DNA of 20,857 nt. Source: a virus. The stretch covers positions 1 through 20,857 of IMG/VR virus record IMGVR_UViG_3300042328_001218. One strand, given 5' to 3'. The notes beneath the pieces were generated by a model, which was not told the origin of the DNA, made no database searches, and was given only the letters and a program-made list of their open reading frames with translations. Position numbers and translations under genes: made by a program. Shown here in pieces: positions 2,709-20,857 of this stretch. How positions within the stretch are numbered: the stretch's first letter is position 1; each line of letters starts with the position of its first letter.

Positions 2709-3590
2709 ATGAGCATTGACAAAAAAATTGCCGAGATCGTGGAAGAATCCAAATTGGCAGGATTAATTGTAGAGAATGAAGAAGCAGTGGAAGAAGTTGT
2801 TGAAGACGAAATCCCTGTTGAAGAAGTTGCGGTTGTCGAAGAATCATTAAAAGTAGATGTTTCTGCTGATGTTGATGCTTTGATGAACGGCGAATCATTA
2901 TCAGAAGAATTTAGAACTAAAGCAGCGACCATTTTCGAAAGTGCCGTTGTCGTGCGCGTTAAAGAAGAAGTTGCGCGTTTAGAAGAAGAATTTGATGTAA
3001 AACTTGCAGAGCAAGTTGAATCAATTACAGAGGGTCTTGTTGAAAAAGTTGATGGATACCTCGACTATGTTGTCGAGCAGTGGATTAGTGAGAATGAAAT
3101 CGCCCTTGAACATGGTATCAAAACTGACATTATGGAATCTTTCATTTCTGGTATGAAAGGACTTTTCCAAGAACATTATATTGAAGTTCCTGAAGAAAAG
3201 TATGACGTACTAGGCGAAATGGAAGCAAAAATTGACAGTCTTGAAGCTAAACTTGACGAACAAGTTTCTAAAAATATTGATTTGAAAAAATCATTACAAG
3301 AAGCTACTCGTAAAGAAATCGTTGGTATGGTCAGCGAAGGTTTGACCGCGACTGAAGTTGAGAAATTCTCAGGTTTAGTTGAAGAATTGGTATTTGAAAG
3401 CGAAGAAGCATTCAAAACTAAAGTACAAACCATCCGTGAAAGTTATTTCACTGGTAAACCGCAACAAAGCACTATTCATTCAGTAGTAACTGATTCTCCA
3501 GTTGAATTGAATGAATCAAAAGGTTCTGTATCTGCAGATCCTTCTATTGCCGCATATTTAAATGCAATTAAACAACTTGACTCAAAATAA
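2709..3590 (+). CDS. gp22: Prohead scaffolding core protein gp22
   Basis: A 293-residue, strongly acidic, largely coiled-coil protein in the position and of the type of T4 gp22, the main scaffold of the prohead core that gp21 degrades during maturation. The N-terminal third is a run of Glu/Val repeats (EEAVEEVVEDEIPVEEVAVV); the centre has heptad-like helices (MEAKIDSLEAKLDEQVSKNI). Many (L/I)xE tripeptides are available for cleavage. An AGAGG ribosome site at 2696-2700 supports the ATG at 2709. Its stop is 13 bases before the gene 23 start. The low-complexity N-terminus is not a reading-frame error, because the frame stays open and codon use is consistent. Confidence 0.9.
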   Translation: MSIDKKIAEIVEESKLAGLIVENEEAVEEVVEDEIPVEEVAVVEESLKVDVSADVDALMNGESLSEEFRTKAATIFESAVVVRVKEEVARLEEEFDVKLAEQVESITEGLVEKVDGYLDYVVEQWISENEIALEHGIKTDIMESFISGMKGLFQEHYIEVPEEKYDVLGEMEAKIDSLEAKLDEQVSKNIDLKKSLQEATRKEIVGMVSEGLTATEVEKFSGLVEELVFESEEAFKTKVQTIRESYFTGKPQQSTIHSVVTDSPVELNESKGSVSADPSIAAYLNAIKQLDSK

Positions 3591-3603
3591 AAAGGAAATA
3601 AAA

Positions 3604-4971
3604 ATGGAACAAGATCGTAGAGCTCTTTTAGAAAAATGGGCACCAATTATCGACGCTGATGGCGTTACTGTTAAAGACCATGGTCGTCGTACTGACTTGG
3701 CTGTTATCTTAGAAAACCAACACCAAGACCAAGTTAAATCAGCACAAGCAATGGGCGTGTTATCAGAAACTGCTTACGCGCCTGCTAACTTTGGCGGTTC
3801 AACTGGTTTGAACGCTGTCTCAACTGGCGGTTATGCACCTGCTACTTCAACTGGTGGCGTTGCTGGTTTCGATCCAGTCTTGATCAATTTAGTACGTCGT
3901 GCTATGCCACAACTGATCGCATATGACGTTGCTGGTGTTCAACCAATGACTCAACCTACTGGTTTGATCTTCGCAATGCGTTCAAAATATACCAACCAAA
4001 CTGGTACTGAAGCATTGTTCAACGAAGCAAACACAGCATTCTCAGGCGCTGGTACACATGACGGTTCAGACCCAACTGAAACTGGTACTTATGCAACTGG
4101 TACAGGTATGACTACTGCTAACGCTGAAAAATTAGGTTCAGATGCTGGTACTAACCCATTCCCAGAAATGGCATTCTCAATTGAAAAAACTTCAGTTGTT
4201 GCTAAAACTCGCGCATTGAAAGCTGAATACTCAATCGAATTGGCACAAGATTTGAAAGCAGTACATGGTTTGGACGCCGAAGGCGAATTGAGCAAAATTC
4301 TTTCTACTGAAATTTTGGCTGAAATCAACCGCGAAGTTATCCGTACTATCTACACTACTTCATACCGTGGTGCACAAAATGGTACAGCAACTGCCGGTAT
4401 TTTCGACTTAGACGTTGACTCAAACGGTCGTTGGTCAGTTGAAAAATTCAAAGGTTTGTTGTTCCAAATTGAACGCGAAGCAAACGCTATCGCACAGTTA
4501 ACTCGTCGTGGTCGTGGTAACTTCATCATCTGTTCTTCTGACGTAGCATCTGCGTTGGCAATGGCGGGCGTATTAGACTACGCTCCTGCGTTGTCTACTG
4601 GTTTGAACGTTGACGAAGCATCTACTACATTTGCTGGTATCTTGAACGGTAAATATAAAGTTTATGTTGATCCATATTCAGGCGGTCAAAACTTAAACCA
4701 CGCTGGCAACCCAAGCGGTTCACAATTCTTCACTGTTGGTTATAAAGGTGCTTCAGCATGGGATGCTGGTTTGTTCTACTGCCCATACGTTCCACTACAA
4801 CAAGTACGTGCGATTGATCCTAACACCATGCAACCTAAGTTCGGTTTCAAAACAAGATATGGTTTAGTTGCCAACCCGTTTGTTGACTTGTTGGATGGTT
4901 CAGGCGATGTTAGTTTGACTGCAAACAAGAATTTTTATTATCGATCTGTCCGAGTACAGAACCTAATGTAA
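3604..4971 (+). CDS. gp23: Major capsid protein gp23
   Basis: A 455-residue HK97-fold major capsid protein of the T4 gp23 family. The start is the ATG at 3604, with AAGGA 8 bases upstream; an upstream in-frame ATG at 3562 lies inside gene 22 and lacks a site. The N-terminal propeptide (about residues 1-55) ends in LSE, a good gp21 (L/I)xE cleavage site, so mature protein would start at T56. Familiar family segments include PQLIAYDVAGVQPMTQPTGLIFAMR, KAEYSIELAQDLKAVHGLDAE and the C-terminal FKTRYGLVANPF (quoted in parts). It is shorter than T4 gp23 (521). Its codon choice looks biased and repetitive (GGT, ACT, AAC, TTC), as expected of the most abundant virion protein. A terminator follows. 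Confidence 0.97.
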   Translation: MEQDRRALLEKWAPIIDADGVTVKDHGRRTDLAVILENQHQDQVKSAQAMGVLSETAYAPANFGGSTGLNAVSTGGYAPATSTGGVAGFDPVLINLVRRAMPQLIAYDVAGVQPMTQPTGLIFAMRSKYTNQTGTEALFNEANTAFSGAGTHDGSDPTETGTYATGTGMTTANAEKLGSDAGTNPFPEMAFSIEKTSVVAKTRALKAEYSIELAQDLKAVHGLDAEGELSKILSTEILAEINREVIRTIYTTSYRGAQNGTATAGIFDLDVDSNGRWSVEKFKGLLFQIEREANAIAQLTRRGRGNFIICSSDVASALAMAGVLDYAPALSTGLNVDEASTTFAGILNGKYKVYVDPYSGGQNLNHAGNPSGSQFFTVGYKGASAWDAGLFYCPYVPLQQVRAIDPNTMQPKFGFKTRYGLVANPFVDLLDGSGDVSLTANKNFYYRSVRVQNLM

Positions 4972-5152: not shown

Positions 5153-6301
5153 ATGTCCAGCGAAACTATTTATTCTATTCTTTCATCTAAACCTCATAAT
5201 CCACATTATCTTAACAGATATTGGAAATTTATTCAATATTGTCAAAAACATAATTTATCGTCAATAGATAATACTCCGCTAGAAGAACATCACGTATGCC
5301 CAAAGGCAAAAGATTTATTTCCTGAATATTCTTCATTTAAGAAAAATGAGTGGAATTTAATAACATTAACCTGTCGCCAACATATATTAGCGCACGTTTT
5401 GTTATGGAAAACATATGGCGGTTCTCAGACATTTGCATTAGATTATATGATAAACAGGGGTAATAATTCATACGGCAATCCTCGCAGTAGTAGAAAAACA
5501 CCGCCATCAATTATAATACGTTATTCAGCAAAATTAAAAGAATTATCTATATTAGAAGAAAAAGGATTTGCTACCTATAAAGATTCTTCTGGCAATAAGT
5601 ATTATTTGCACAAAAATGATCCGCTAATCAAAGAATTCAAATTGGTTGGGAATAATAAAGGAATGCTGCATGATGAAAATTCTAAGAAAAAAATGTCTCG
5701 TGCTAAATTCTTAAATAAAAAAATTAAATTGTATTTTTTAAATTGTAAAATTTCTGTTAAATTATTTTCAGATGAGTTTCATAATTATATTTCACAGGGA
5801 TGGAGTACAACAAAAACTGAAGATGATAAAAAATATATTTCTGTATTACAAAGCGAAAAAGTAAGTAAAAAATTAACAGGCAAAGTTAATTATATGACTC
5901 CAGACGGGATATATTTTGGAAAATTACTTAGAACTGATCCGTTGATAAAAGAATTAAATTTATTACCACATTTGACAGATAAAATGATAAATCAAAGAAG
6001 TAGTAGATCTAAATTAGCTTCTGCTGCTAATACTGGATCTCAGATATATAATAACGGCGTAAAAGAAAAAAAATTTAAAGATGAAGTTCCAGATGGTTGG
6101 GTTAAAGGCAGATTGCCGAGGTCTAAAGAATATGACAATAATCACAAAAATGCAACAGCAAAGGCACATAAAAATACATATTGTTGGAATAATGGAATTA
6201 AATGCATAAAATTACCCGCATCAGAACACCCTGGAGACGGCTGGGCGAAGGGAATGTTGCCTAGAAAGAGTAAAAATAAAAAACGAACAAAAAATAAATA
6301 A
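5153..6301 (+). CDS. HNH homing endonuclease with C-terminal DNA-binding repeats
   Basis: A 382-residue endonuclease of the phage homing type. An N-terminal helix (PHYLNRYWKFIQYC) leads into an HNH core: EEHHVCPKA (H46/H47), WNLITL (N68) and RQHILAHVLLWK (H77, H81). The rest is built of NUMOD-like modules: two copies of a unit containing DPLIKE(F/L), and two C-terminal units of the form WNNGIK...GDGWAKGMLP / YNNGVK...PDGWVKGRLP. These repeats are thought to read a long asymmetric DNA target. The C-terminus is Lys-rich. The ATG at 5153 has AAGGA upstream. A different AT-rich codon style from gene 23 and the flanking repeats support recent arrival. Its target is unknown, probably a neighbouring gene in uninfected relatives. 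Confidence 0.88.
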   Translation: MSSETIYSILSSKPHNPHYLNRYWKFIQYCQKHNLSSIDNTPLEEHHVCPKAKDLFPEYSSFKKNEWNLITLTCRQHILAHVLLWKTYGGSQTFALDYMINRGNNSYGNPRSSRKTPPSIIIRYSAKLKELSILEEKGFATYKDSSGNKYYLHKNDPLIKEFKLVGNNKGMLHDENSKKKMSRAKFLNKKIKLYFLNCKISVKLFSDEFHNYISQGWSTTKTEDDKKYISVLQSEKVSKKLTGKVNYMTPDGIYFGKLLRTDPLIKELNLLPHLTDKMINQRSSRSKLASAANTGSQIYNNGVKEKKFKDEVPDGWVKGRLPRSKEYDNNHKNATAKAHKNTYCWNNGIKCIKLPASEHPGDGWAKGMLPRKSKNKKRTKNK

Positions 6302-10136: not shown

Positions 10137-10745
10137 ATGTCAAAAGAAGCACCGAAACGCCAGTATGTGGACAACGATGCGTTTTTCGAAGCAATGCAAG
10201 AACGTATTAAATTAGTCAAAGAAGCAGAAGAACAAGGTTTACCTAACCCTAGAATTACCGATTTTCTTGGTGAATGTATATTTAAAATTGCAACTAACTT
10301 CTCTAATTTAAGAAGTTTCAATAGATACCCATTCAAAGAAGATATGGTTCTTGACGGCGTAGAAAATTGTTTAAAAGTCATCGACAATTTTGATGAAAAT
10401 AAAACGCAAAATCCGTTTTCTTATTTTACACAAATAGTTTATTTCGCATTCCTTCGAAGAATCTCTAAAGAGAAAAAACAAGTTTATATTCGAAGTAAAC
10501 TATTAACGTCTAATGCACTGGATTTACAGGAACTTCAAGAACACGACGAACAAGGCGATTTCACTAATCATTATATTGAATACATGAAAGCATTCAATAA
10601 TTTTGACGGTTCCGCATTTGAAAAACCTAAAAAAGAAAAAAACTTGAATGCAGCATACAAAGGCGCTACATTAGATGAATTATGGGAGGAATTAGATGAA
10701 CTCGACGATACAATCGCTCCTGAGACAAGCGGGAATCCGTCGTAG
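10137..10745 (+). CDS. gp55: Late-transcription sigma factor gp55
   Basis: A 202-residue homologue of T4 gp55 (185), the small sigma-like factor that directs host RNA polymerase to TATAAATA late promoters. Matching segments include YPFKEDMVLDGVENCLKVID (T4: SWKQEMIADGIEASIKGL), NFDENKTQNPFSYFTQIVYF (T4: NFDETKYKNPHAYITQACF) and LRRISKEKKQV (T4: VQRIKKERKEV). Near the C-terminus TLDELWE (178-184) resembles T4's clamp-binding SLDFLYE, which links late transcription to the sliding clamp. I start at ATG 10137, preceded by AAAGGA. The gene overlaps the next by 50 bases, unusually long for this phage, adding an 18-residue tail beyond the clamp motif. Confidence 0.92.
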   Translation: MSKEAPKRQYVDNDAFFEAMQERIKLVKEAEEQGLPNPRITDFLGECIFKIATNFSNLRSFNRYPFKEDMVLDGVENCLKVIDNFDENKTQNPFSYFTQIVYFAFLRRISKEKKQVYIRSKLLTSNALDLQELQEHDEQGDFTNHYIEYMKAFNNFDGSAFEKPKKEKNLNAAYKGATLDELWEELDELDDTIAPETSGNPS

Positions 10746-11799
10746 ACTCCGCGCAAGAAAGAACAGAAGAGTTAGTTATTTTTCACCAGAAGAAAAAGTG
10801 AGTTTTGTAATGAATAAAGATATAGTGATGGGCGTTGGCTCATTTGATGAATATGTGTCGGGTACTATTCAACAAAAACGATTGAAAGAAAATAAAGAAA
10901 TTTATCACAAAGAAGTAAAAATTATTGCATCACAAAAAGAATGGAGAGAATTTCTTGAAAGAGAATATGTTGACAAATATAGAATTGTTCAAACAAGAAG
11001 TAATGGTGGCTGGATCATCGCTGATGCAATGGATAGTTATATTGATTACTATTGTTCTGGTACCACCACTACTCTTAGTTTTATTGGGGATAGGGATTTT
11101 GTCATTAGTAATAAAGAGTATATCGAGAGTGTTTATCAAGTAGCAGAATCCTATATCAATTGGATGTATGACTCAAACGGCAGTTATATCTCAATGGCAT
11201 TGGAGACTGATACTCTGCCGATTGATTCCATGTATCCATTTTTAAATGGTGAAACATTGGAAAGCTACTATGACCGATTCCTAAAATCATCAGCATCTAT
11301 TTTATTATTGGTGGGCGATCCTGGCACGGGTAAAACAAGTTTTATTAAAGGATTACTAAGTTATGCCAAAACTTCCGCAACTGTTACTTATGATCCCGCT
11401 ATATTGGATAAAGACTCTATTTTTGCAGACTGGATGGAAGATTCCGATTCGACTGTATTAGTGTTAGAAGACATGGATATGTTCTTATCTGCTAGAACGG
11501 AAGGAAATAATCTTATGCACCGTTTCCTTAACGTATCAAACGGATTAATTACTGCCAAGGGTAAGAAGATGATTTTCTCCACTAACTTACCAAGCATTCG
11601 AGATGTTGATCCTGCTCTAACAAGACCTGGTAGATGTTTTGAGGCATTAAAATTCGGTTCATTGACTAAGGATCAAGCATCTAAAGTTGCAGAAGATTTA
11701 AACATTGGATTGGTGTCAGATAAAGATTCCTATACAATCGCTGGAATCTTCCATGAAATGAATATTAAACCTGTTAATAAATTTGGTTTTAATCAATAA
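10696..11799 (+). CDS. BCS1-like AAA+ ATPase
   Basis: A 367-residue protein with a basic N-terminus (RRRLRARKNRR), an unrecognised alpha/beta domain (about 60-180) and a C-terminal classical AAA module. The AAA module has Walker A GDPGTGKT (207-214), Walker B VLVLEDMD (E258-D259), sensor-1 region MIFSTNLPS and the DPALTRPGR arginine-finger/sensor segment. The wording around Walker B and RPGR is closest to BCS1-type AAA proteins. GAGGA 6 bases before ATG 10696 supports this start despite the 50-base overlap with gene 55. T4-like relatives often carry an ATPase near here. The role (unfolding or remodelling a virion or replication protein) is unknown. Confidence 0.85.
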   Translation: MNSTIQSLLRQAGIRRRLRARKNRRVSYFSPEEKVSFVMNKDIVMGVGSFDEYVSGTIQQKRLKENKEIYHKEVKIIASQKEWREFLEREYVDKYRIVQTRSNGGWIIADAMDSYIDYYCSGTTTTLSFIGDRDFVISNKEYIESVYQVAESYINWMYDSNGSYISMALETDTLPIDSMYPFLNGETLESYYDRFLKSSASILLLVGDPGTGKTSFIKGLLSYAKTSATVTYDPAILDKDSIFADWMEDSDSTVLVLEDMDMFLSARTEGNNLMHRFLNVSNGLITAKGKKMIFSTNLPSIRDVDPALTRPGRCFEALKFGSLTKDQASKVAEDLNIGLVSDKDSYTIAGIFHEMNIKPVNKFGFNQ

Positions 11800-11833: not shown

Positions 11834-13549
11834 ATGTCCATCAATTCTAACCCAGAAAAACAGTTGGAGGATGCGGCATATGATTTCTTTCATTCGTCGC
11901 ACGAAGCAATTTATACGGCTGATTTAGACGGTTTAATCCTAGCGTGTAACGCCAGATTAACATTGCTTACAGGTTATTCAACAGAAGAATTAATCGGTAG
12001 CCATACTAGAATGCTTAAATCGGGTATCTACGATAGCGAATTCTATAGGATTATGTGGGATTCAATCAAAGAATATGGATTCTGGCACGGTCAGATAACT
12101 AATAGACGAAAAGACGGTTCATTCTATACCGTCATTACCACTATCACTTCTGTATATGATGCAGACGGGACACCAATTCGATACTTATCGGTTGGTAGCG
12201 ATATCACACAAATAATTGAAAATAAAAATCAGTTGGAATATTCCGCTTATTATGATAGTCTAACAGGTATACCCAATCGATTATTGTTATTGGATAGAAT
12301 TAAACAATCAATTTCCTATTCAAACAGAAACAAAACTTTCGTTGCAATTCTATACATTGATTTGGATGGATTCAAAGACATCAATGATAATCTAGGACAT
12401 GATGTTGGCGATGAATTCCTGAAAGAAATCAGTCAGCGCATGAAATCAATACTCAGGGAATCTGATACCATTGCCAGATTGGGCGGCGATGAATTTGTTA
12501 TCGTATTGAACAATCTAACCGATAAAAAAGATTGTGAAGTACCCGCTAAAAAGATATTACAAATCTGTTCATCGCCAATAGAAATTGATGGTATATTACT
12601 TCAGACATCAGCCAGCATTGGTATCAGTTTTCATCCTGCAGAACCCTATGCAGTAGAAGCAGATGCATTGATTAGACAAGCTGATCAAAGTATGTACATT
12701 GCCAAAATGCAAGGCAAAAATCAATGCCATATCTATGATAAGATGGAAGATGATCCAATTACTACTAGACAGGAAATGATTGATCAGATTCATCCTTCTT
12801 TGCAGCGAGGTGATTTCTTTCTGTGTTATCAGCCAAAGATTAATATGATCACGGGCGATTTGATTGGCGTAGAAGCATTGCTCAGATGGAAACACCCTAC
12901 TCGCGGTATACTTGCACCAATGGAGTTTTTAAACATTATACAAAAGACGCCGATTGGTGTACAAGTATCCTGTTGGGTTATAAAGGAAGCATTGCGACAA
13001 TCTTCAGTCTGGAAAGAAGATGGGTTGTATATACCCATTAGCGTTAATTTAGATCCCGTTGTATTGAGCCAATGCGATTTTGTTGATAAATTGAATACTA
13101 TAATCCATCAACGCCCAAATTTTAACCCAGGCGATATTTCGTTTGAAATCCTCGAATCATCAATCATAGAAGATAATAAAAGAGTATCTGAAATCATTGA
13201 CCAATGCAAAGAAATGGGTATTACATTTGGGTTAGACGATTTTGGTACGGGATATTCCTCATTATCCCACATCAGAAATCTTTCGATTGATCATATCAAA
13301 ATTGATAAAAGTTTTGTTATGAATTTAATCCACAACCCAATCGATAGGGTTATAGTGGAAAGTATCATCAATCTATCTAACGCATTGAATCTAACTGTTA
13401 TTGCCGAAGGTGTAGAAACAGCGGAACAAGGCAGAGAACTGATTAAAATGGGATGCACGTATGCCCAAGGGTACTACATATCAAAACCAATCCTACCCGA
13501 GAAAATTCCGTTTTGGCTACGAGAATGGAAACTTTCGTCTTATTTTTGA
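11834..13549 (+). CDS. PAS-GGDEF-EAL cyclic di-GMP synthase/phosphodiesterase
   Basis: A 571-residue soluble signalling protein that makes and/or breaks cyclic di-GMP. Domains: PAS/PAC (about 14-135: YTADLDGLILACNARL, LTGYSTEELIG, GFWHGQITNRRKDGSFY, SVGSDIT); GGDEF (about 138-300) with DLDGFKDINDNLGH, an intact GGDEF (217-221) and an inhibitory I-site RESD (208-211) exactly five residues before it; EAL (about 315-565) with EAL (E347), SVNL (N405), FEILES (E438), DDFGTGYSS (D468, D469), IKIDKSF (K489), AEGVET (E525) and AQGYY (Q545). These are the metal and general-base residues known for active EAL enzymes such as RocR, at matching spacing. There is no signal peptide or membrane segment. Both activities look possible; the net direction is unknown. 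Phage genes on both sides exclude host DNA. The ribosome site is weak. Confidence 0.95.
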   Translation: MSINSNPEKQLEDAAYDFFHSSHEAIYTADLDGLILACNARLTLLTGYSTEELIGSHTRMLKSGIYDSEFYRIMWDSIKEYGFWHGQITNRRKDGSFYTVITTITSVYDADGTPIRYLSVGSDITQIIENKNQLEYSAYYDSLTGIPNRLLLLDRIKQSISYSNRNKTFVAILYIDLDGFKDINDNLGHDVGDEFLKEISQRMKSILRESDTIARLGGDEFVIVLNNLTDKKDCEVPAKKILQICSSPIEIDGILLQTSASIGISFHPAEPYAVEADALIRQADQSMYIAKMQGKNQCHIYDKMEDDPITTRQEMIDQIHPSLQRGDFFLCYQPKINMITGDLIGVEALLRWKHPTRGILAPMEFLNIIQKTPIGVQVSCWVIKEALRQSSVWKEDGLYIPISVNLDPVVLSQCDFVDKLNTIIHQRPNFNPGDISFEILESSIIEDNKRVSEIIDQCKEMGITFGLDDFGTGYSSLSHIRNLSIDHIKIDKSFVMNLIHNPIDRVIVESIINLSNALNLTVIAEGVETAEQGRELIKMGCTYAQGYYISKPILPEKIPFWLREWKLSSYF

Positions 13550-13558
13550 AAAAAGTTC

Positions 13559-13587
13559 TTGCCTTCCGTTCTGAGATGCGGTATACT
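13559..13587 (+). promoter_or_regulatory. Sigma70-like early promoter for the small-gene cluster
   Basis: TTGCCT at 13559-13564, a 17-base spacer, TATACT at 13582-13587. It heads a run of small genes reaching 15946 and possibly gp47/46. Confidence 0.72.
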
Positions 13588-13597
13588 TATGTGCATA

Positions 13598-13617
13598 GGT
13601 AAGGGGCGTTCCTTGCC
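13598..13617 (+). promoter_or_regulatory. 5' leader hairpin
   Basis: GGTAAGG - GGCGTT - CCTTGCC forms a 7-bp RNA stem (one G-U pair) starting about 4 bases after the expected transcription start. A stem-loop at the extreme 5' end often protects mRNA from decay. There is no T-run, so it is not a terminator. Confidence 0.5.
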
Positions 13618-13634
13618 AACTAGGAGAGAATAAT

Positions 13635-13844
13635 ATGAAAAGATTTAAACCACTAATAGCAATATTAATAACATTAACATCAACACCGTTTCTGGTAATA
13701 TTCTATATTAGTATGTACAAATTGAGTATCCATCTAATTTCGCTGGAAACATTTGGTACACAAGAGTACATTGGTACTATTCTAGTCTGTTTTTTAACTC
13801 TTAGATTTTTAGGTAGCTATTCTAGTCTGTTTTTTAACTCTTAG
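13635..13844 (+). CDS. Small membrane protein with a C-terminus altered by duplication
   Basis: A 69-residue hydrophobic protein: basic start (MKRFKP), a first membrane segment at about 7-28 (LIAILITLTSTPFLVIFYIS) and a second at about 46-60 (IGTILVCFLTLRFLG). AGGAG 9 bases upstream makes ATG 13635 firm. A 40-bp tandem duplication (13777-13856) shifts the frame: the protein now ends SYSSLFFNS at 13844. With a single repeat copy it would end GRARQIHFPRDEA, stopping three bases before the next gene's ATG. Function unknown; as the first gene behind an early promoter it may act on the host membrane, which is inference. Confidence 0.75.
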   Translation: MKRFKPLIAILITLTSTPFLVIFYISMYKLSIHLISLETFGTQEYIGTILVCFLTLRFLGSYSSLFFNS

Positions 13845-13856
13845 ATTTTTAGGTAG
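13777..13856 (+). repeat. 40-bp perfect tandem duplication
   Basis: Two identical 40-base copies, 13777-13816 and 13817-13856, directly adjacent. The unit is not a multiple of three and covers the 3' end of the small membrane protein gene. Confidence 0.97.
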
Positions 13857-13895
13857 AGCAAGACAAATACATTTTCCAAGAGATGAGGCATAATA

Positions 13896-14225
13896 ATGAG
13901 TAAAGTAAAACAAACACTAGAAGAAACTGCAGTCGAATTTGAAACATTTCAACAGAAATTACCTGTTGTAGAGGGCAAACCCAGTATCGCCAATTGGACG
14001 ATTCAAATCAGATTCTATACAAGAGAACAGTGTTACAAATTAATTGAATTGCTATCAAAAGAACCTGTAGTGTATCCATTTAATTTTGATTGTATCTTCA
14101 ACGGGGAATTTGAAGAATACTGGTTAACCATTAATGATATGCAATGGGCAACTAATCTGACTAAACTGGGTCAACTATTGGAACAATGTGATTATGGTTC
14201 GTTTCAAACTAAAGAAAGCAATTAG
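13896..14225 (+). CDS. Uncharacterised early protein
   Basis: A 109-residue protein that I do not recognise. GAGG 7 bases before ATG 13896 supports the start. The sequence mixes helices (VKQTLEETAVEFETFQQKL, REQCYKLIELLSKE) with strands (WTIQIRFYT, FNFDCIFNGEF, YWLTIND), suggesting a small soluble alpha/beta protein. No membrane segment or known motif. It belongs to the early small-gene run and is 14 bases from the next gene. Confidence 0.75.
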   Translation: MSKVKQTLEETAVEFETFQQKLPVVEGKPSIANWTIQIRFYTREQCYKLIELLSKEPVVYPFNFDCIFNGEFEEYWLTINDMQWATNLTKLGQLLEQCDYGSFQTKESN

Positions 14226-14239
14226 AATTGGAGTATATT

Positions 14240-14479
14240 ATGCAAATTGATGCAACAAACATGTTTTTAGTTTATAATACCGTTACCGATATTTGTTCTG
14301 AACACAGAATACCGATAAAACCTGAGTGGTCTTGTCCTTTTGTTCAAACTCAAGTTTATGATCAACATTCTAAAAGTTGGCGATTTATGTTTGCTAATTA
14401 TGACATAACTGATGAATTTATTATAATTTACTTTAATGTTAAAGATATCTATAAGATTTCAGTAGCGGCCGCCAAATAA
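14240..14479 (+). CDS. Uncharacterised small protein
   Basis: A 79-residue protein, unrecognised. The ATG at 14240 has GGAG 7 bases upstream; a TTG 12 bases earlier in the same frame is less likely. Sequence features are aromatic-rich strands (SWRFMFANYDITDEFIIIYF) and an Ala-Ala-Ala-Lys end. Two Cys (ICSEHR, WSCPF) are too far apart and too few for a zinc site. Probably an early accessory protein. Confidence 0.7.
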   Translation: MQIDATNMFLVYNTVTDICSEHRIPIKPEWSCPFVQTQVYDQHSKSWRFMFANYDITDEFIIIYFNVKDIYKISVAAAK

Positions 14480-14488
14480 AAAAGACAA

Positions 14489-14523
14489 CCGATTCTGATG
14501 TATCTAACAGAAGAAAGAATCGG
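14489..14523 (+). promoter_or_regulatory. Hairpin enclosing a possible start codon
   Basis: Perfect 8-bp inverted repeat CCGATTCT / AGAATCGG with a 19-base loop that contains the ATG at 14498. No T-run. It could fold the translation start of the 39-codon frame, or be part of a structured untranslated region between 14480 and 14708. Confidence 0.4.
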
Positions 14524-14617
14524 ATGGATTTATGATGATAAAAGATTCTATATAAAGAATACGTGGCTAGATAGGAGATATTATGGAAGGTTTATTAATG
14601 ACAAAGGCATCCATTAA
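14498..14617 (+). CDS. Possible 39-residue peptide
   Basis: A short frame, MYLTEERIGWIYDDKRFYIK then NTWLDRRYYGRFINDKGIH, rich in aromatic and charged residues. It lacks a good ribosome site, overlaps the next small frame by 35 bases, and begins inside the loop of the 14489-14523 hairpin. The composition looks protein-like, but it may be untranslated. Confidence 0.35.
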   Translation: MYLTEERIGWIYDDKRFYIKNTWLDRRYYGRFINDKGIH

Positions 14618-14705
14618 CCCAACCTCGATTAGATTTATGCCAGATGGCAACACAGAAGTGTTGAGAATAGAACCGTTGGGTTCTATTCTCTGGAATGGTA
14701 GATAA
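14583..14705 (+). CDS. Small protein of 40 residues
   Basis: A 40-codon frame with a strong AGGAG ribosome site 6 bases before ATG 14583, ending 3 bases before the next gene's ATG. Peptide: MEGLLMTKASINPTSIRFMP, then an acidic segment and LGSILWNGR. The last third of the gene contains a perfect 12-bp hairpin, so base choice there may be constrained by RNA structure. Function unknown. Confidence 0.55.
   Translation: MEGLLMTKASINPTSIRFMPDGNTEVLRIEPLGSILWNGR
14663..14690 (+). promoter_or_regulatory. Perfect 12-bp hairpin with 4-base loop
   Basis: GAGAATAGAACC, loop GTTG, GGTTCTATTCTC: a fully complementary stem inside the 3' end of the 40-residue gene and 18 bases before the next start codon. 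No T-run follows, so it is not a standard terminator. It may be a processing site, translational control element or DNA cruciform. Confidence 0.75.
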
Positions 14706-14708
14706 AAT

Positions 14709-14999
14709 ATGACTCAAAAATTATTTCAACATAAACATTTAAATCATGGTAAAGATTCATATACTGTTGGCGACATTTTTGTATATGAAAGTGTATATTA
14801 TATCTTAGCAGTTTCCAGTCATAATTTCGGTAGCGGAGGTTATGTTGTATTGATAAATTTATACTCAGGCGGTATTTGGGACGTCCACACATCTGTAAAA
14901 GATATCGGTAAAATTACAGTATCGGAATTGTCTGATATTATTGGTTCTGATGTATCTAGGTTTAGATATGTTCCAAAATTAATTATCACAGAGGAATAA
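14709..14999 (+). CDS. Uncharacterised 96-residue protein
   Basis: An unrecognised beta-rich protein (YTVGDIFVYESVYYILAVSS, GGYVVLINLYSGGIWDV). The pattern GDIFVYES..YYILAV..., then GYVVLINLYSG, resembles small SH3-like barrels in which a short protein reads 'vGdif...yyilv', but this is impression only. The ribosome site is weak, and the strong hairpin at 14663-14690 lies just upstream. The stop overlaps the next start by one base (TAATG). Confidence 0.7.
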   Translation: MTQKLFQHKHLNHGKDSYTVGDIFVYESVYYILAVSSHNFGSGGYVVLINLYSGGIWDVHTSVKDIGKITVSELSDIIGSDVSRFRYVPKLIITEE

Positions 15000-15349
15000 T
15001 GTTTGTAATGAAAAAGTTTAAATATTATAAAGAAGGTATTGTTTATGCTAATGATGATACTGAAGCATTAAACAAATTGAATAATGATGTTACAGAATTA
15101 TGGGAAGAAGTTGAAGGTTTAGAGAGATGGGATGATGAGTTGCCAAATTCTGAACAAAAATATGTTAATATTCAGTATATTCTCGTTTCTAGTGAATATG
15201 ATAAAGAACAACTATTAAAAGCATTTGAGTATATCCACGATTGTCGCGGAATTGATACAGATTATATGGCTGTAAATACAATCGCGCATTTATATCTACA
15301 ACCTGATAATATTATTGTAACCAAAGATTCTAATGAATCAATAATATAA
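14999..15349 (+). CDS. Uncharacterised acidic protein
   Basis: A 116-residue protein, coupled to the previous gene by TAATG. An alternative ATG at 15008 (MKKFKYYKEG) is possible; GAGG at 14991-14994 sits 4 bases from the first and 13 from the second. The sequence is acidic and helical in the middle (TEALNKLNNDVTELWEEVEG) with a later segment YDKEQLLKAFEYIHDCRGID. No known motif. Probably a cytoplasmic early protein. Confidence 0.68.
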   Translation: MFVMKKFKYYKEGIVYANDDTEALNKLNNDVTELWEEVEGLERWDDELPNSEQKYVNIQYILVSSEYDKEQLLKAFEYIHDCRGIDTDYMAVNTIAHLYLQPDNIIVTKDSNESII

Positions 15350-15363
15350 AGGAAAAATTAAAA

Positions 15364-15591
15364 ATGACATATACAATAGAATTGAGTAAAAACTCAATCC
15401 AAAATTTGGATAAACAAGAATTAACTGATAGACATATTATACTCGTCAAAGTTGATGTAAAGGATATGCCGGCGCACAAAGCAATCAAATTTATGAGAGA
15501 TATTAGTAAAGAATTTGCTGATAAAGTTGCTCCAGCTGAAATAATTGTCATGCCATTAGAAAATACTATCGAAGTATTTGCAAAAAAGTGA
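15364..15591 (+). CDS. Uncharacterised 75-residue protein
   Basis: A short alpha/beta protein with AAGG upstream of ATG 15364. Visible pattern: strand RHIILVKVDV, helix AHKAIKFMRDISKEFADKV, strand EIIVMPL, strand TIEVFAKK. This beta-alpha-beta order suggests a ferredoxin-like small domain, which is inference. Function unknown. Confidence 0.7.
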   Translation: MTYTIELSKNSIQNLDKQELTDRHIILVKVDVKDMPAHKAIKFMRDISKEFADKVAPAEIIVMPLENTIEVFAKK

Positions 15592-15616
15592 TTATGAAAC
15601 GGATTAAGGAATAATA

Positions 15617-15718
15617 ATGACTAAATTTAAAGTTCCTGGTGTAGTTGATATTGTTGAAAATTGTGATGGCGATTTAGATTGTGCCATATTTACTATCAAA
15701 AAAAGAATTTGGAGTTGA
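15617..15718 (+). CDS. Possible 33-residue peptide
   Basis: A small frame with AAGGA 6 bases before ATG 15617 and a stop 3 bases before the next start. Peptide MTKFKVPGVVDIVENCDGDL then DCAIFTIKKRIWS. Tight spacing and a good ribosome site favour translation. No known family. Confidence 0.5.
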   Translation: MTKFKVPGVVDIVENCDGDLDCAIFTIKKRIWS

Positions 15719-15721
15719 AGA

Positions 15722-15946
15722 ATGAAACCTAAAGTAAAATACTATTTCAATCAATTCTGTGAAGATCGGAAATTTCTGGCATTTAATGAAAGATATGATT
15801 TTATCTGGAAAGATTTTGATGATGAAGATTTAGCATGGGAAGCGTTTGTTCATCTTGCCACTATGATCCAACAACAATTTGGCACAATTAATCTTGAATT
15901 AGAACTTCTAAAGAAATATGTAGCTATATCATCCGAGGATAATTGA
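15722..15946 (+). CDS. Uncharacterised 74-residue protein
   Basis: A small helical, aromatic-rich protein (YYFNQFCEDRKFLAFNERYD, WEAFVHLATMIQQQFG). GGAG 7 bases before ATG 15722. Its stop is 3 bases before gene 47, so it is probably cotranscribed with the recombination nuclease genes. Function unknown. Confidence 0.7.
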   Translation: MKPKVKYYFNQFCEDRKFLAFNERYDFIWKDFDDEDLAWEAFVHLATMIQQQFGTINLELELLKKYVAISSEDN

Positions 15947-15949
15947 AGA

Positions 15950-17005
15950 ATGAAAGCAGTTTTAATTTCCGACCAGCATATAGGAGCAAGGGAAAATAGT
16001 ACCATCATCCTTGAACATCAACGTAAATTTTATGATGAGATATTTTTTCCTTATCTGATAGAGAATAATATCAATATAATTATTGGTCTAGGCGATTTCT
16101 GGGATAAAAGAAAATATACCAATAATTATATTGCTGAACAAGCAAAACGATTATACTTTGATAAATTAGTTGAATATGGAATTTATCATTACATGATAGT
16201 AGGAAATCACGATTGTGCGTTCAAAAATTCTCTATTCCCAAACACCCCAAGAACATTACTAGCTGAGTATTCCAATCTGCATATCATTGATGAGCCACAA
16301 ACGGTATCAGTTGATGGTATTGACATCGCTATGATTCCTTGGATTTGCCAAGATAATTACGATGCTTCAATGAACGAAATTGCTACGTCGAAGGCAGATA
16401 TTTGTATGCTTCATGCAGAAATCTCTGGATTTCAGATGTATCGCGGCGTTGAATCGCATGGCGGTTTATCTCAATCAATGTTCGACCGATATGATAAAGC
16501 ATTTTCCGGTCATTACCACCATCGGTCAACTAAAGGCAATATTACCTATCTTGGTACGCCTTATGAACTAACTTGGCAAGATTATGGTGATCCTAAAGGA
16601 TTCCATACTTTCGACCTTGCTACTAGGGAGTTGACTTTTATTGAAAATCCGAATAAACTATTCGTTAAGATTGAATACAATGATTTAGATCAAGAACCCG
16701 TTGATTTGAGTGGTTTACAAATCAAAGATACTTACGTAAAATTAATTGTAGTCAACAAGACCGATTTCTATAAGTATGATCAGTTCTTGAATAAATTGTA
16801 TAACAAAGGTGCTTATGAGATTAAAATTATCGAAGACATCGGAGATTTCTCTACTGGCGAACTGTCGGATGACATTAAATTAGAAGATACGCAGTCTGTT
16901 CTAAATCACTATATTGAATCAATCGAAACTGACGTTGATACTGTAAAAATTAAATCATACATTCAATCGCTTTATGCGGAAGCGTTGAACTTGGAAATGG
17001 CATAA
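15950..17005 (+). CDS. gp47: Recombination endonuclease subunit gp47 (SbcD/Mre11-like)
   Basis: A 351-residue metallophosphoesterase, the nuclease half of the gp46/gp47 complex that resects DNA ends for recombination and helps degrade host DNA. All calcineurin-type motifs are present in order: D8-x-H10 (LISDQHIG), GDFWD (D49), GNHD (N86-H87), LHAE (H155) and GHYHH (H188, H190). Length is close to T4 gp47 (339). The C-terminal third would form the capping and gp46-binding region. The stop overlaps the gene 46 start (TAATG), so the two subunits are translationally coupled. Confidence 0.96.
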   Translation: MKAVLISDQHIGARENSTIILEHQRKFYDEIFFPYLIENNINIIIGLGDFWDKRKYTNNYIAEQAKRLYFDKLVEYGIYHYMIVGNHDCAFKNSLFPNTPRTLLAEYSNLHIIDEPQTVSVDGIDIAMIPWICQDNYDASMNEIATSKADICMLHAEISGFQMYRGVESHGGLSQSMFDRYDKAFSGHYHHRSTKGNITYLGTPYELTWQDYGDPKGFHTFDLATRELTFIENPNKLFVKIEYNDLDQEPVDLSGLQIKDTYVKLIVVNKTDFYKYDQFLNKLYNKGAYEIKIIEDIGDFSTGELSDDIKLEDTQSVLNHYIESIETDVDTVKIKSYIQSLYAEALNLEMA

Positions 17006-18985: not shown

Positions 18986-20857
18986 ATGAATCAAGTGATC
19001 GACATTACCGCTAAACTTCTGGCAACAGAAAATCTTACCATCATTAAAAAACCTTGCAGAACTGCCGCGTTTGACACCGAATCCCGCGAACTAATTCTTC
19101 CTGTTTGGAAAGACATGACCCCAGAAATCGAAGGGATGTTGGTCGGTCACGAAGTTGGTCATGCTCTTTATACCACCCTTGATATTATTGATGCTGTCAA
19201 AGATAACAAAAAACTTCATACTTATTTGAACGTCATCGAGGATGTTCGAGTAGAAAAGTTAATGAAACGCAAATACCCTGGATTGCGCAAAACCTTTACT
19301 GCTGGTTATAAACAGTTAAATGATCGCGACTTCTTCGGCGTAAGCGAAATCGCTGATATGTCCACTTTGAATCTTATTGACAGAATCAATATGTGGTACA
19401 AAGTTGGATTTTCCGCAAACGTCAAATTCTCTAAAACCGAGATGGAATTTGTTAACCGCACCGAAAGAACTGAAACTTCTAAAGAGGTAATTCAACTTGC
19501 ACAGGAAATCTATGATTATTCAAAAGAACAGTTAGAGAAGAATCCGCAACAACAAAAACCGCAATTGCAAATGGAAGATCCAGAAGGCGATGATGATTCA
19601 TACGATGATTCCGAATATATGGAATTTGATGAATCTGACTCCGATGAATCAGAAACTCCTAGTGATGTTGATGCAGAATCAACAGATGACGATCAAGGCA
19701 CTGGCGAAACTTCTGCATCTGATGGTTCAAGTAACCGCGAAATGACCGAAGAAGAACTGGAAGAAGCATTAGAATCAATTACCGATAAAGCATTGTCAAA
19801 TGCCATCGATGAGTTAGCAGATACCTCGGTGCAGTATAACTACCATACTCTAGCAACTGATTATGATATTGATTTTATCATTCCAGTAAAAACAATTTTG
19901 GATGAAACCAAAGACGTTGATGATTATCCAAAAATGATTACTAGATGTGGAACTGAGATGGACCAGTCCGTCGATGATGCGTTTAATACATTCAAAACTA
20001 ACGCCAATCGTACGGTATCTTATTTGGTAAAAGAATTTGAAATGAAAAAAGCGGCAACTGCTTACAAAAGAACCCAGACTTCAAAATCGGGTTCGCTTGA
20101 TATGTCGAAAATCTTTGCTTACCAGTTGAACGATGATTTGTTCAAACGGGTTACCGCCATTAAAAGGGGTAAAAACCACGGTATGATGTTTTTACTGGAC
20201 TGGTCCGGTTCGATGAGTAATGTCATTCATGATACACTTGAACAAGTAATTACTCTGGCAATGTTTTGTCATCGCGCGCAGATTCCGTTCCAAGTATTGG
20301 CGTTTACCGATCATTATTATAGAAACTTCGATAAAGACAACACTGCTTATTATGAACGAGTAAAAGCGAGAAGGGTAGATTACCGTAATAAACAATTTAC
20401 ATTAAATAATACCGTAGACACTTGTAATCTGTTGGAATTCTTTAATGACAAAATGTCTACGAGAGAATTTAATGTCATGGCAAAACGATTATTTAACACG
20501 TTTGCGTTCATTCATGGTAGTTATAATTTAGGTTCAACGCCATTGAATCAATCATTGGCATTTATGACTGAATACCTTGGTTCATTTATTCGCAAAAATA
20601 ATATTGAAAAAATGTCCTTTATTACGTTGACTGACGGCATGGGTGATAGTTTACGTTCGTCCAGTCCGTTTTATTCCGGAAAAATTGATAAAATTAAAAA
20701 CTTTATTACCGATCCAATTACTAAAATCACTTACCCTTTCAAAATCACTTACCCTTTCAAAGAAAATTCGGTTGAACAAACAGGTACATTATTAAAAATT
20801 ATTAAAGACAGATACAACGTTAATAACATTGGTTTTTATATCGCATCTAAAGCATCC
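18986..20857 (+). CDS. CobT-like protein with HExxH motif and vWA domain (3' end outside window)
   Basis: At least 624 residues, open at the right edge. Domains: an N-terminal zinc-peptidase-like region with HEVGH (55-59) and downstream acidic NVIEDVRVE (possible third ligand, E85 or E90); a very acidic low-complexity linker (about 190-255, Asp/Glu/Ser); a helical segment; and a von Willebrand A domain with MIDAS DWSGSMS (D405, S407, S409), the conserved Thr in GSTPLNQ, and LTDGMGD. Acidic linker plus vWA is the CobT layout; CobT-type proteins work with MoxR/CobS-type AAA+ ATPases to insert metals or remodel proteins. Similar proteins occur in T4-like cyanophages. ATG 18986 follows GGAG. Metal-peptidase activity is inferred. 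It contains an in-frame 18-bp duplication. Confidence 0.88.
   Translation, partial: MNQVIDITAKLLATENLTIIKKPCRTAAFDTESRELILPVWKDMTPEIEGMLVGHEVGHALYTTLDIIDAVKDNKKLHTYLNVIEDVRVEKLMKRKYPGLRKTFTAGYKQLNDRDFFGVSEIADMSTLNLIDRINMWYKVGFSANVKFSKTEMEFVNRTERTETSKEVIQLAQEIYDYSKEQLEKNPQQQKPQLQMEDPEGDDDSYDDSEYMEFDESDSDESETPSDVDAESTDDDQGTGETSASDGSSNREMTEEELEEALESITDKALSNAIDELADTSVQYNYHTLATDYDIDFIIPVKTILDETKDVDDYPKMITRCGTEMDQSVDDAFNTFKTNANRTVSYLVKEFEMKKAATAYKRTQTSKSGSLDMSKIFAYQLNDDLFKRVTAIKRGKNHGMMFLLDWSGSMSNVIHDTLEQVITLAMFCHRAQIPFQVLAFTDHYYRNFDKDNTAYYERVKARRVDYRNKQFTLNNTVDTCNLLEFFNDKMSTREFNVMAKRLFNTFAFIHGSYNLGSTPLNQSLAFMTEYLGSFIRKNNIEKMSFITLTDGMGDSLRSSSPFYSGKIDKIKNFITDPITKITYPFKITYPFKENSVEQTGTLLKIIKDRYNVNNIGFYIASKAS
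20723..20758 (+). repeat. 18-bp perfect tandem duplication within the vWA gene
   Basis: Two identical adjacent 18-base copies (20723-20740 and 20741-20758) that encode KITYPF twice. The frame is preserved. Confidence 0.95.

Follow-up and report, generated by a model that had tools for sequence, protein, structure and literature searches.

A PAS-GGDEF-EAL protein with intact cyclic di-GMP motifs in an accessory slot of a T4-like phage

INTRODUCTION

In many bacteria, the choice between swimming and sticking is governed chiefly by cyclic di-GMP. What, then, would a T4-like phage do with a protein that joins a PAS sensor to both a synthase and a hydrolase domain for this messenger? The question arises from one gene in a 20,857-base IMG/VR virus record, the whole of which is called the window here. 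Diguanylate cyclases or GGDEF domains of phages are already in print, as far as the accessible parts of the sources go (PMC7785012, PMC8471281, PMC5512222). A figure legend on glacier viruses also names a diguanylate cyclase (available part of PMC8290583), and in PMC7824862 the relevant terms are confined, in the accessible part, to the references. We asked whether the gene truly belongs to the phage, whether its domains are intact, where it came from, and what it may do.

RESULTS

The gene (11834..13549, plus strand) begins with ATG and appears in the ORF list as a 571-aa protein. Pfam recognizes PAS (residues 19-124; 11888..12205), GGDEF (residues 138-297; 12245..12724), and EAL (residues 319-552; 12788..13489) domains on the plus strand, with 59.2, 156.9, and 219.6 bits against cut-offs of 22.6, 23.8, and 31.3, respectively. 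With the three domains this far above threshold, the full-length PAS-GGDEF-EAL enzyme described in the earlier note stands. The protein also matches PHROG 11823 (693 positions, annotated as unknown function) at 486 bits, so a relative of it is already present in phage or prophage data.

The motifs of both cyclic di-GMP domains are preserved. The RxxD I-site (R208-D211; 12455..12466, plus strand) lies nine residues upstream of G217 in the GGDEF motif (residues 217-221; 12482..12496, plus strand), and E347 and the DDFGTG stretch (468-473) are in place in the EAL domain, the former within EALLRW. In an alignment of 154 homologs, the GGDEF motif and the I-site are the commonest residues at their positions, as are D176, N184, D193, and K291, and all 12 of the EAL residues compared (Q333, E347, N405, E438, E441, D468, D469, K489, D491, E525, E528, and Q545). 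We assume that the metal, guanine, I-site, and catalytic roles of these positions carry over from work on PleD and RocR. Only two departures from the common form were noted. The first is L440, at a position that is mostly T in the EITE motif of other homologs; yet, of the close bacterial homologs, 40 of 55 have L there, compared with 1 of 99 others, which marks it as a subfamily trait rather than damage. The second, K295, is R in many homologs; among the same 55, K occurs in 30 and R in 23. Thus, the motif, its inhibitory site at the right distance, and the EAL catalytic residues, all claimed at first sight of the DNA, withstand comparison with homologs. The intact motifs are consistent with catalytic activity of both domains, and we consider it very likely that the gene is functional.

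Sequence searches place the phage PAS nearest to the solved structure 3ewk ("Sensor protein"; 2.3e-25) and then to NifL (2gj3; 1.1e-12), with phototropins and Aer as weaker matches. We take 3ewk to be MmoS. MmoS, NifL, and Aer are FAD redox sensors, and the phage domain is probably a redox/flavin sensor as well. LOV domains carry the motif GxNCRFLQ; in an alignment by eye, the LOV photoactive cysteine was not found in the phage protein, which has GSHTRMLK at the motif place and T at the cysteine position. Light, one of the cues that the earlier note had entertained, is therefore unlikely, and the weakness of the phototropin matches relative to MmoS and NifL tells against it too.

An AlphaFold2 model of the 571-aa protein reached a mean pLDDT of 88.5 and a pTM of 0.49; the domains are thus secure, whereas their mutual arrangement is uncertain. 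Fold matches to the model include DosP, MorA, PA0575, MucR, and PA0861, a PAS-GGDEF-EAL protein. PA0861 (5xgb) from Pseudomonas aeruginosa, presumably RbdA, resembles the phage protein in domain order and fold, at 26% identity across the aligned part. RbdA is membrane-anchored in its host, unlike the phage protein, which is predicted to be soluble.

Family searches show that the gene is embedded in a phage backbone. Upstream of it run the gp20 portal, the gp21 protease, the Gp23 major capsid protein that marks the T4-like backbone (3562..4971, plus strand), UvsW, a late sigma factor, and an AAA ATPase (10696..11799, plus strand); small ORFs, an SbcD-like gp47 (15950..17005, plus strand), an SMC/AAA protein, and a peptidase follow. 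That the gene comes after a phage AAA gene and within phage genes, as initially proposed, is confirmed by this search. The T4-like character is given by gp20, gp21, Gp23, gp47, UvsW, a gp55-type sigma factor, and a gp46-type protein in T4-like order, where gp46 is assigned by place plus its SMC/AAA match and gp22 by place alone. The best listed Gp23 matches are to cyanophage and one marine virus (57.6-60.9%) and name no host. Within the window, the T4 late motif TATAAATA has a single occurrence, distant from the PAS-GGDEF-EAL gene, and sigma70-like promoter sites show no excess over shuffled sequence.

Comparison of relatives identifies the AAA and gp47 genes as the conserved left and right borders of an accessory slot, which, besides the PAS-GGDEF-EAL gene, contains small ORFs (13550..15949, plus strand); one of these, of 109 aa (13896-14225), has no PHROGs match. 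The gap between the two borders measures 4,150 nt in the window, -7 to 147 nt in ten of twelve relatives (two of which, L013 and L014, give the same values and are perhaps one virus), 1,422 nt in L012, and 2,619 nt in L011. This variation in size indicates that the slot holds differing accessory genes. None of the twelve relatives that span AAA to gp47 carries a PAS-GGDEF-EAL gene in the slot. A further record (L032) shares the backbone as far as the AAA protein, of which it holds the first 50 residues. By reading, the slot of L012 contains an ORF (L012:3812-4588) that resembles PEP-CTERM cargo, its start being like a signal peptide and its C-terminal tail reading VPLP.

For the window and for the second record of this phage described below, IMG/VR either classes the sequence as a fragment or gives no completeness value. 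When viral contigs were scanned, the gene was recovered at 99% identity, with both flanks, in a 43,996-base record (L002), and the upstream flank plus 927 nt of the gene, with zero differences, in another (L003); judged by their names, these two come from different data sets. A chimeric assembly is ruled out by the agreement of the window with L002 at both flanks and with L003 at the upstream junction. The earlier note had singled out loss of the gene from between its flanks as the sign of such a chimera, and in L002 the gene is kept together with both. These records confirm it as a genuine phage gene. The window and L002 copies differ by an indel pair at codons 2-3 and by 12 substitutions, of which 9 are synonymous versus 3.7 expected by random placement (P=0.0017), although the 12 bunch within about 200 nt and possibly represent one recombination tract instead of independent changes. 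The synonymous excess may be read as a sign of protein-level constraint.

The two records also differ outside the gene. A 382-aa ORF that follows gp23 in the window (5153-6301) is without a counterpart there in L002; it has no Pfam match and is perhaps a mobile homing-type gene. Two perfect tandem 40-base units (13777-13856) cover the end of a 69-aa ORF, where L002 has a single copy. Finally, 18 bases of the peptidase gene (20723-20740) are missing, in frame, in L002.

Is such a gene common among phages? Searches found GGDEF in 0/50 and EAL in 0/50 records, drawn from 95 IMG/VR records that are related or bear curli or CHASE2, and tblastn of the phage protein against the sequence fetched for 79 loci of these kinds gave no match. 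A phage collection yielded 156 matching records, all below 60% identity, the best-ranked covering 80% of the protein at 35.5%. Of the 156, we inspected the 40 at the top of the ranking and 60 at even spacing; many of these are unannotated faecal contigs or, by length and gene names, bacterial-looking records (e.g., Acinetobacter "phage MD-2021a" and Salmonella records), and they were rejected as phage precedents. Cyanophage AS-1 contig_14 (1.7 kb, without annotation) matches at 28%. The supposed rarity of the gene in phages is borne out by the relatives and by the low identities in the phage collection.

The top bacterial matches span nearly the full length, with 44-46% identity, and in named genomes identity reaches 40% at best. 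Plasmids of Aeromonas (pKAM330_4) and Aromatoleum (EbN1 plasmid 1) match residues 1-566 or 19-565 at 42%. With the best three or four candidates scored per genome, matches at E <= 1e-125 were found in 30 of 369 genomes of the class of Vibrio sinus and in 66 of 300 genomes of the order of a Comamonadaceae genome. A tree of 99 rows, built by a quick method, recovered a 49-row clade with support 100 in which the phage pair is sister to the other 47 rows; both phage rows are flagged for unusual letter make-up, which makes this placement less sure. The phage protein thereby falls in the ExLE gammaproteobacterial PAS-GGDEF-EAL subfamily, with which it shares the domain order and L in place of T. The branch of the two phage rows is long and lone (1.21 changes per site), and key residues are retained along it. 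The tree suggested in the earlier note to find the donor lineage thus placed the subfamily and left the donor species unfound, the best bacterial identity being 46%. Together with the long branch, this figure argues against a recent capture from any genome examined. Most of the bacterial relatives exceed the phage protein in length (47 of 48 listed places lie in open frames of >650 aa), in contrast to the bare core encoded by the phage. The phage protein, compared in this way, is a predicted soluble core of a longer bacterial sensor type.

The second record, which extends past the window, adds further genes. In it, Pfam identifies a 690-aa CHASE2-nucleotidyl cyclase (L009:1565-3637), a 265-aa flagellin (L009:4733-5530), and, on the strand opposite the flagellin, a curli cluster of CsgF, CsgG, curlin repeat, and FecR (L009:7088-10785), all of the latter over cut-off; these genes are known from this one record, outside the window. 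The N-terminal flagellin domain exceeds its cut-off and the C-terminal one reaches 21.7 against a cut-off of 23. No Pfam family matches the 120-aa ORF that follows the flagellin, and our guess is a FliS- or FlaF-like protein. Ahead of the cyclase, the record also contains putative sliding-clamp- and clamp-loader-like frames, by reading, and a GH19 endolysin-like protein just below cut-off (23.9 versus 25.5 bits). When 20 relatives of the curlin-repeat protein were aligned, 8 of them matched the curlin repeat model. Relatives of CsgG occur at 65 viral loci, the phage's own counted, of which 63 keep the order CsgF-CsgG-curlin-like-FecR and 40 show a cyclase match of at least 40% identity in the fetched stretch.

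Viral csgF/csgG genes had been reported earlier (accessible parts of PMC7029224 and PMC9004378), and a pelagiphage curli (T8SS) module with CsgA/B, FecR, and adenylate cyclase has been published (PMC9599517, as far as available). This module shares CsgF/CsgG/curlin, FecR, and the kind of cyclase with the second record. The main text of PMC9599517 contains, in its available part, neither "c-di-gmp" nor "flagell", and both gene kinds are additions in the present phage; c-di-GMP terms do not occur in the accessible parts of PMC9599517, PMC7029224, and PMC9004378.

Phage-borne GGDEF-EAL is not unique to the present phage; other large phage-like IMG/VR records have it. A scan of viral contigs with the family alignment found 286 relatives, of which the best 79 loci were kept. 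PAS-GGDEF-EAL is present in phage-like records of 92,872 bases (L150; RNA ligase and DHFR near by) and 89,963 bases (L161; adjoining a tail-fibre gene), and a 184,280-base record (L149) holds the same protein stretch as L150. Gp23 was sought in the whole records of 50 of 77 loci, this phage's own excluded, and three matched: records of 328,096 and 543,035 bases strongly, and one of 115,428 bases (G095) marginally, over 30 model positions. The G095 match consists of two short separate Gp23-like pieces (27162-27251 and 42984-43091), which could reflect chance or a capsid gene that is split or divergent.

The two strong Gp23 records also carry flagellin. In the 328-kb record, flagellin, FlaG, and a FliS-like ORF (FliS below cut-off) lie about 5.5 kb after the GGDEF-EAL gene (L217:14839-16368), and a second, weaker GGDEF occurs elsewhere. 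The 543-kb record has GGDEF-EAL among replication-type frames, a second GGDEF, and a flagellin-FlbT-FlaF module about 14 kb off (L274:4889-6505), which we take to be an alphaproteobacterial-type flagellin set with regulators. In a search of 30 records, flagellin was found in 3/3 with GGDEF-EAL and clear Gp23 versus 0/27 others (18 curli or backbone relatives and 9 large GGDEF-EAL records without a Gp23 match), but two of the three were known beforehand and the 543-kb record is the sole blind match. The fetched pieces of G095 yielded no flagellin in tblastn with three flagellins, which recovered known flagellins in control loci; if this record is counted, the figure becomes 3/4. In a viral scan, the flagellin of the window phage had no match other than itself, and three aligned flagellins found seven viral loci, three on records with GGDEF and four on records without, two of the latter being short fragments. 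The link between GGDEF-EAL and flagellin among Gp23 phages is thus suggestive only, tempered by these four of seven loci.

DISCUSSION

Our results are best explained, with a probability that we set a little above even, by a phage that acquired a sensor core of gammaproteobacterial origin (GTDB sense) and uses it as a PAS-gated set-point enzyme for host cyclic di-GMP. This reading starts from what is observed, i.e., the protein's identity, its intact motifs, its location in a phage, the sign of constraint, and the empty sites in relatives. The accessory gene between AAA and gp47 would be the soluble PAS-GGDEF-EAL core of such a sensor, acting in the cytoplasm during infection. Both activities may operate in a dimer that the PAS, with a ligand of the redox/flavin type, biases in the direction of either GGDEF synthesis or EAL hydrolysis, so as to override the host cyclic di-GMP pool, on which the choice between motility and matrix depends. 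We infer these properties, as well as any coupling to curli, nucleotidyl cyclase, and flagellin. The curli and flagellin genes of the second record strengthen the reading in terms of biofilm and motility. Weighing against the set-point explanation are L440, the bunching of the substitutions, the flagged phage rows in the tree, the lack of a promoter signal near the gene, the confinement of the curli, cyclase, and flagellin genes to one record outside the window, the missing flagellin in G095, and the uncertain domain arrangement of the model.

Two narrower forms of the set-point explanation fix the direction of the effect. The enzyme could be a net phosphodiesterase in which GGDEF binds GTP and switches EAL on, so that the phage lowers cyclic di-GMP, cells leave the matrix, and the phage spreads, a possibility that we rate appreciable but short of even. 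In RbdA, GGDEF mainly binds GTP and turns on EAL, and PA0861 is a solved PAS-GGDEF-EAL protein among the closest by both sequence and fold; moreover, EAL is the top-scoring domain, with all twelve checked residues retained. A pure GTP binder, however, would need neither an intact GGDEF motif and metal site nor the I-site. Curli goes with high cyclic di-GMP in enteric bacteria, and the phage's own curli would likewise suit high rather than low levels. This last point and the intact GGDEF and I-site speak for a net cyclase, which would raise cyclic di-GMP to drive matrix or curli and host aggregation; we regard this version as possible but rather unlikely. The EAL residues are equally intact, and PAS-GGDEF-EAL proteins of solved structure such as RbdA and DosP act as hydrolases. 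The literature, in its accessible parts, points both ways: lysogens of the Bordetella siphovirus LK3, which carries a diguanylate cyclase, are reported to be hyperbiofilm formers (PMC8471281), a precedent for the net cyclase, and "sibling capture" has been suggested for curli phages (PMC7029224), but the curli-bearing methylophage Melnitz gave no clumping (PMC9004378).

Explanations outside host surface control fare worse. The gene might be a passenger, i.e., a bacterial gene caught without selection, as its presence in one phage lineage only and the varying slot contents of relatives would allow. We give this very little credence, since key residues are kept along the 1.21 branch at a best bacterial identity of 46%, the substitutions show a synonymous excess, and three records have the gene in common. 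Counter-defence, with EAL clearing the cyclic di-GMP alarm of a CBASS-STING-type system, also seems highly improbable. Phages do degrade defence nucleotides, but the anti-CBASS enzymes known to us are small and single-domain, and an intact cyclase with a PAS sensor is hardly expected in such an enzyme. The retained cyclase domain leaves the depletion of cyclic di-GMP as anti-defence, put forward in the earlier note, a weak proposal, even with phage degradation of defence nucleotides on record (available part of PMC12657218).

A broader proposal is that large Gp23-type phages carry a kit for taking over the host surface state, made up of a cyclic di-GMP synthase/hydrolase and their own flagellin, to which curli fibres and a nucleotidyl cyclase would be added in the present phage. 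We hold this to be doubtful, and slightly more so in view of G095 and its missing flagellin. If true, the infected cell would be re-dressed, with the second messenger and the filaments that it governs both being viral.

Known phage proteins of this kind differ from the one reported here. Bacillus phage G gp350 (40% identity) and SP-15 carry a GGDEF, and only this part is matched. Bordetella LK3, a Yuavirus, and a Mu-like virus have a diguanylate cyclase named and, in the accessible parts of the sources, no EAL named; LK3 is described as temperate, and a transposase is present in the Mu-like virus (PMC8471281, PMC7785012). As far as these sources go, a T4-like backbone is not described for any of the five. 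Diguanylate cyclases of phages are therefore known, as is phage curli accompanied by adenylate cyclase, and the novelty is a full PAS-GGDEF-EAL protein in a T4-like phage, of which no case was found in the literature searched, which covers few subscription journals.

To conclude, with a sensor-synthase-hydrolase rather than a bare cyclase, a T4-like phage might set the swimming/sticking switch according to the state of the infected cell. Such a phage would open to experiment the question of whether phages control the motility and aggregation of their hosts so as to better the next round of infection and, likewise, what purpose viral curli and viral flagellin may have.
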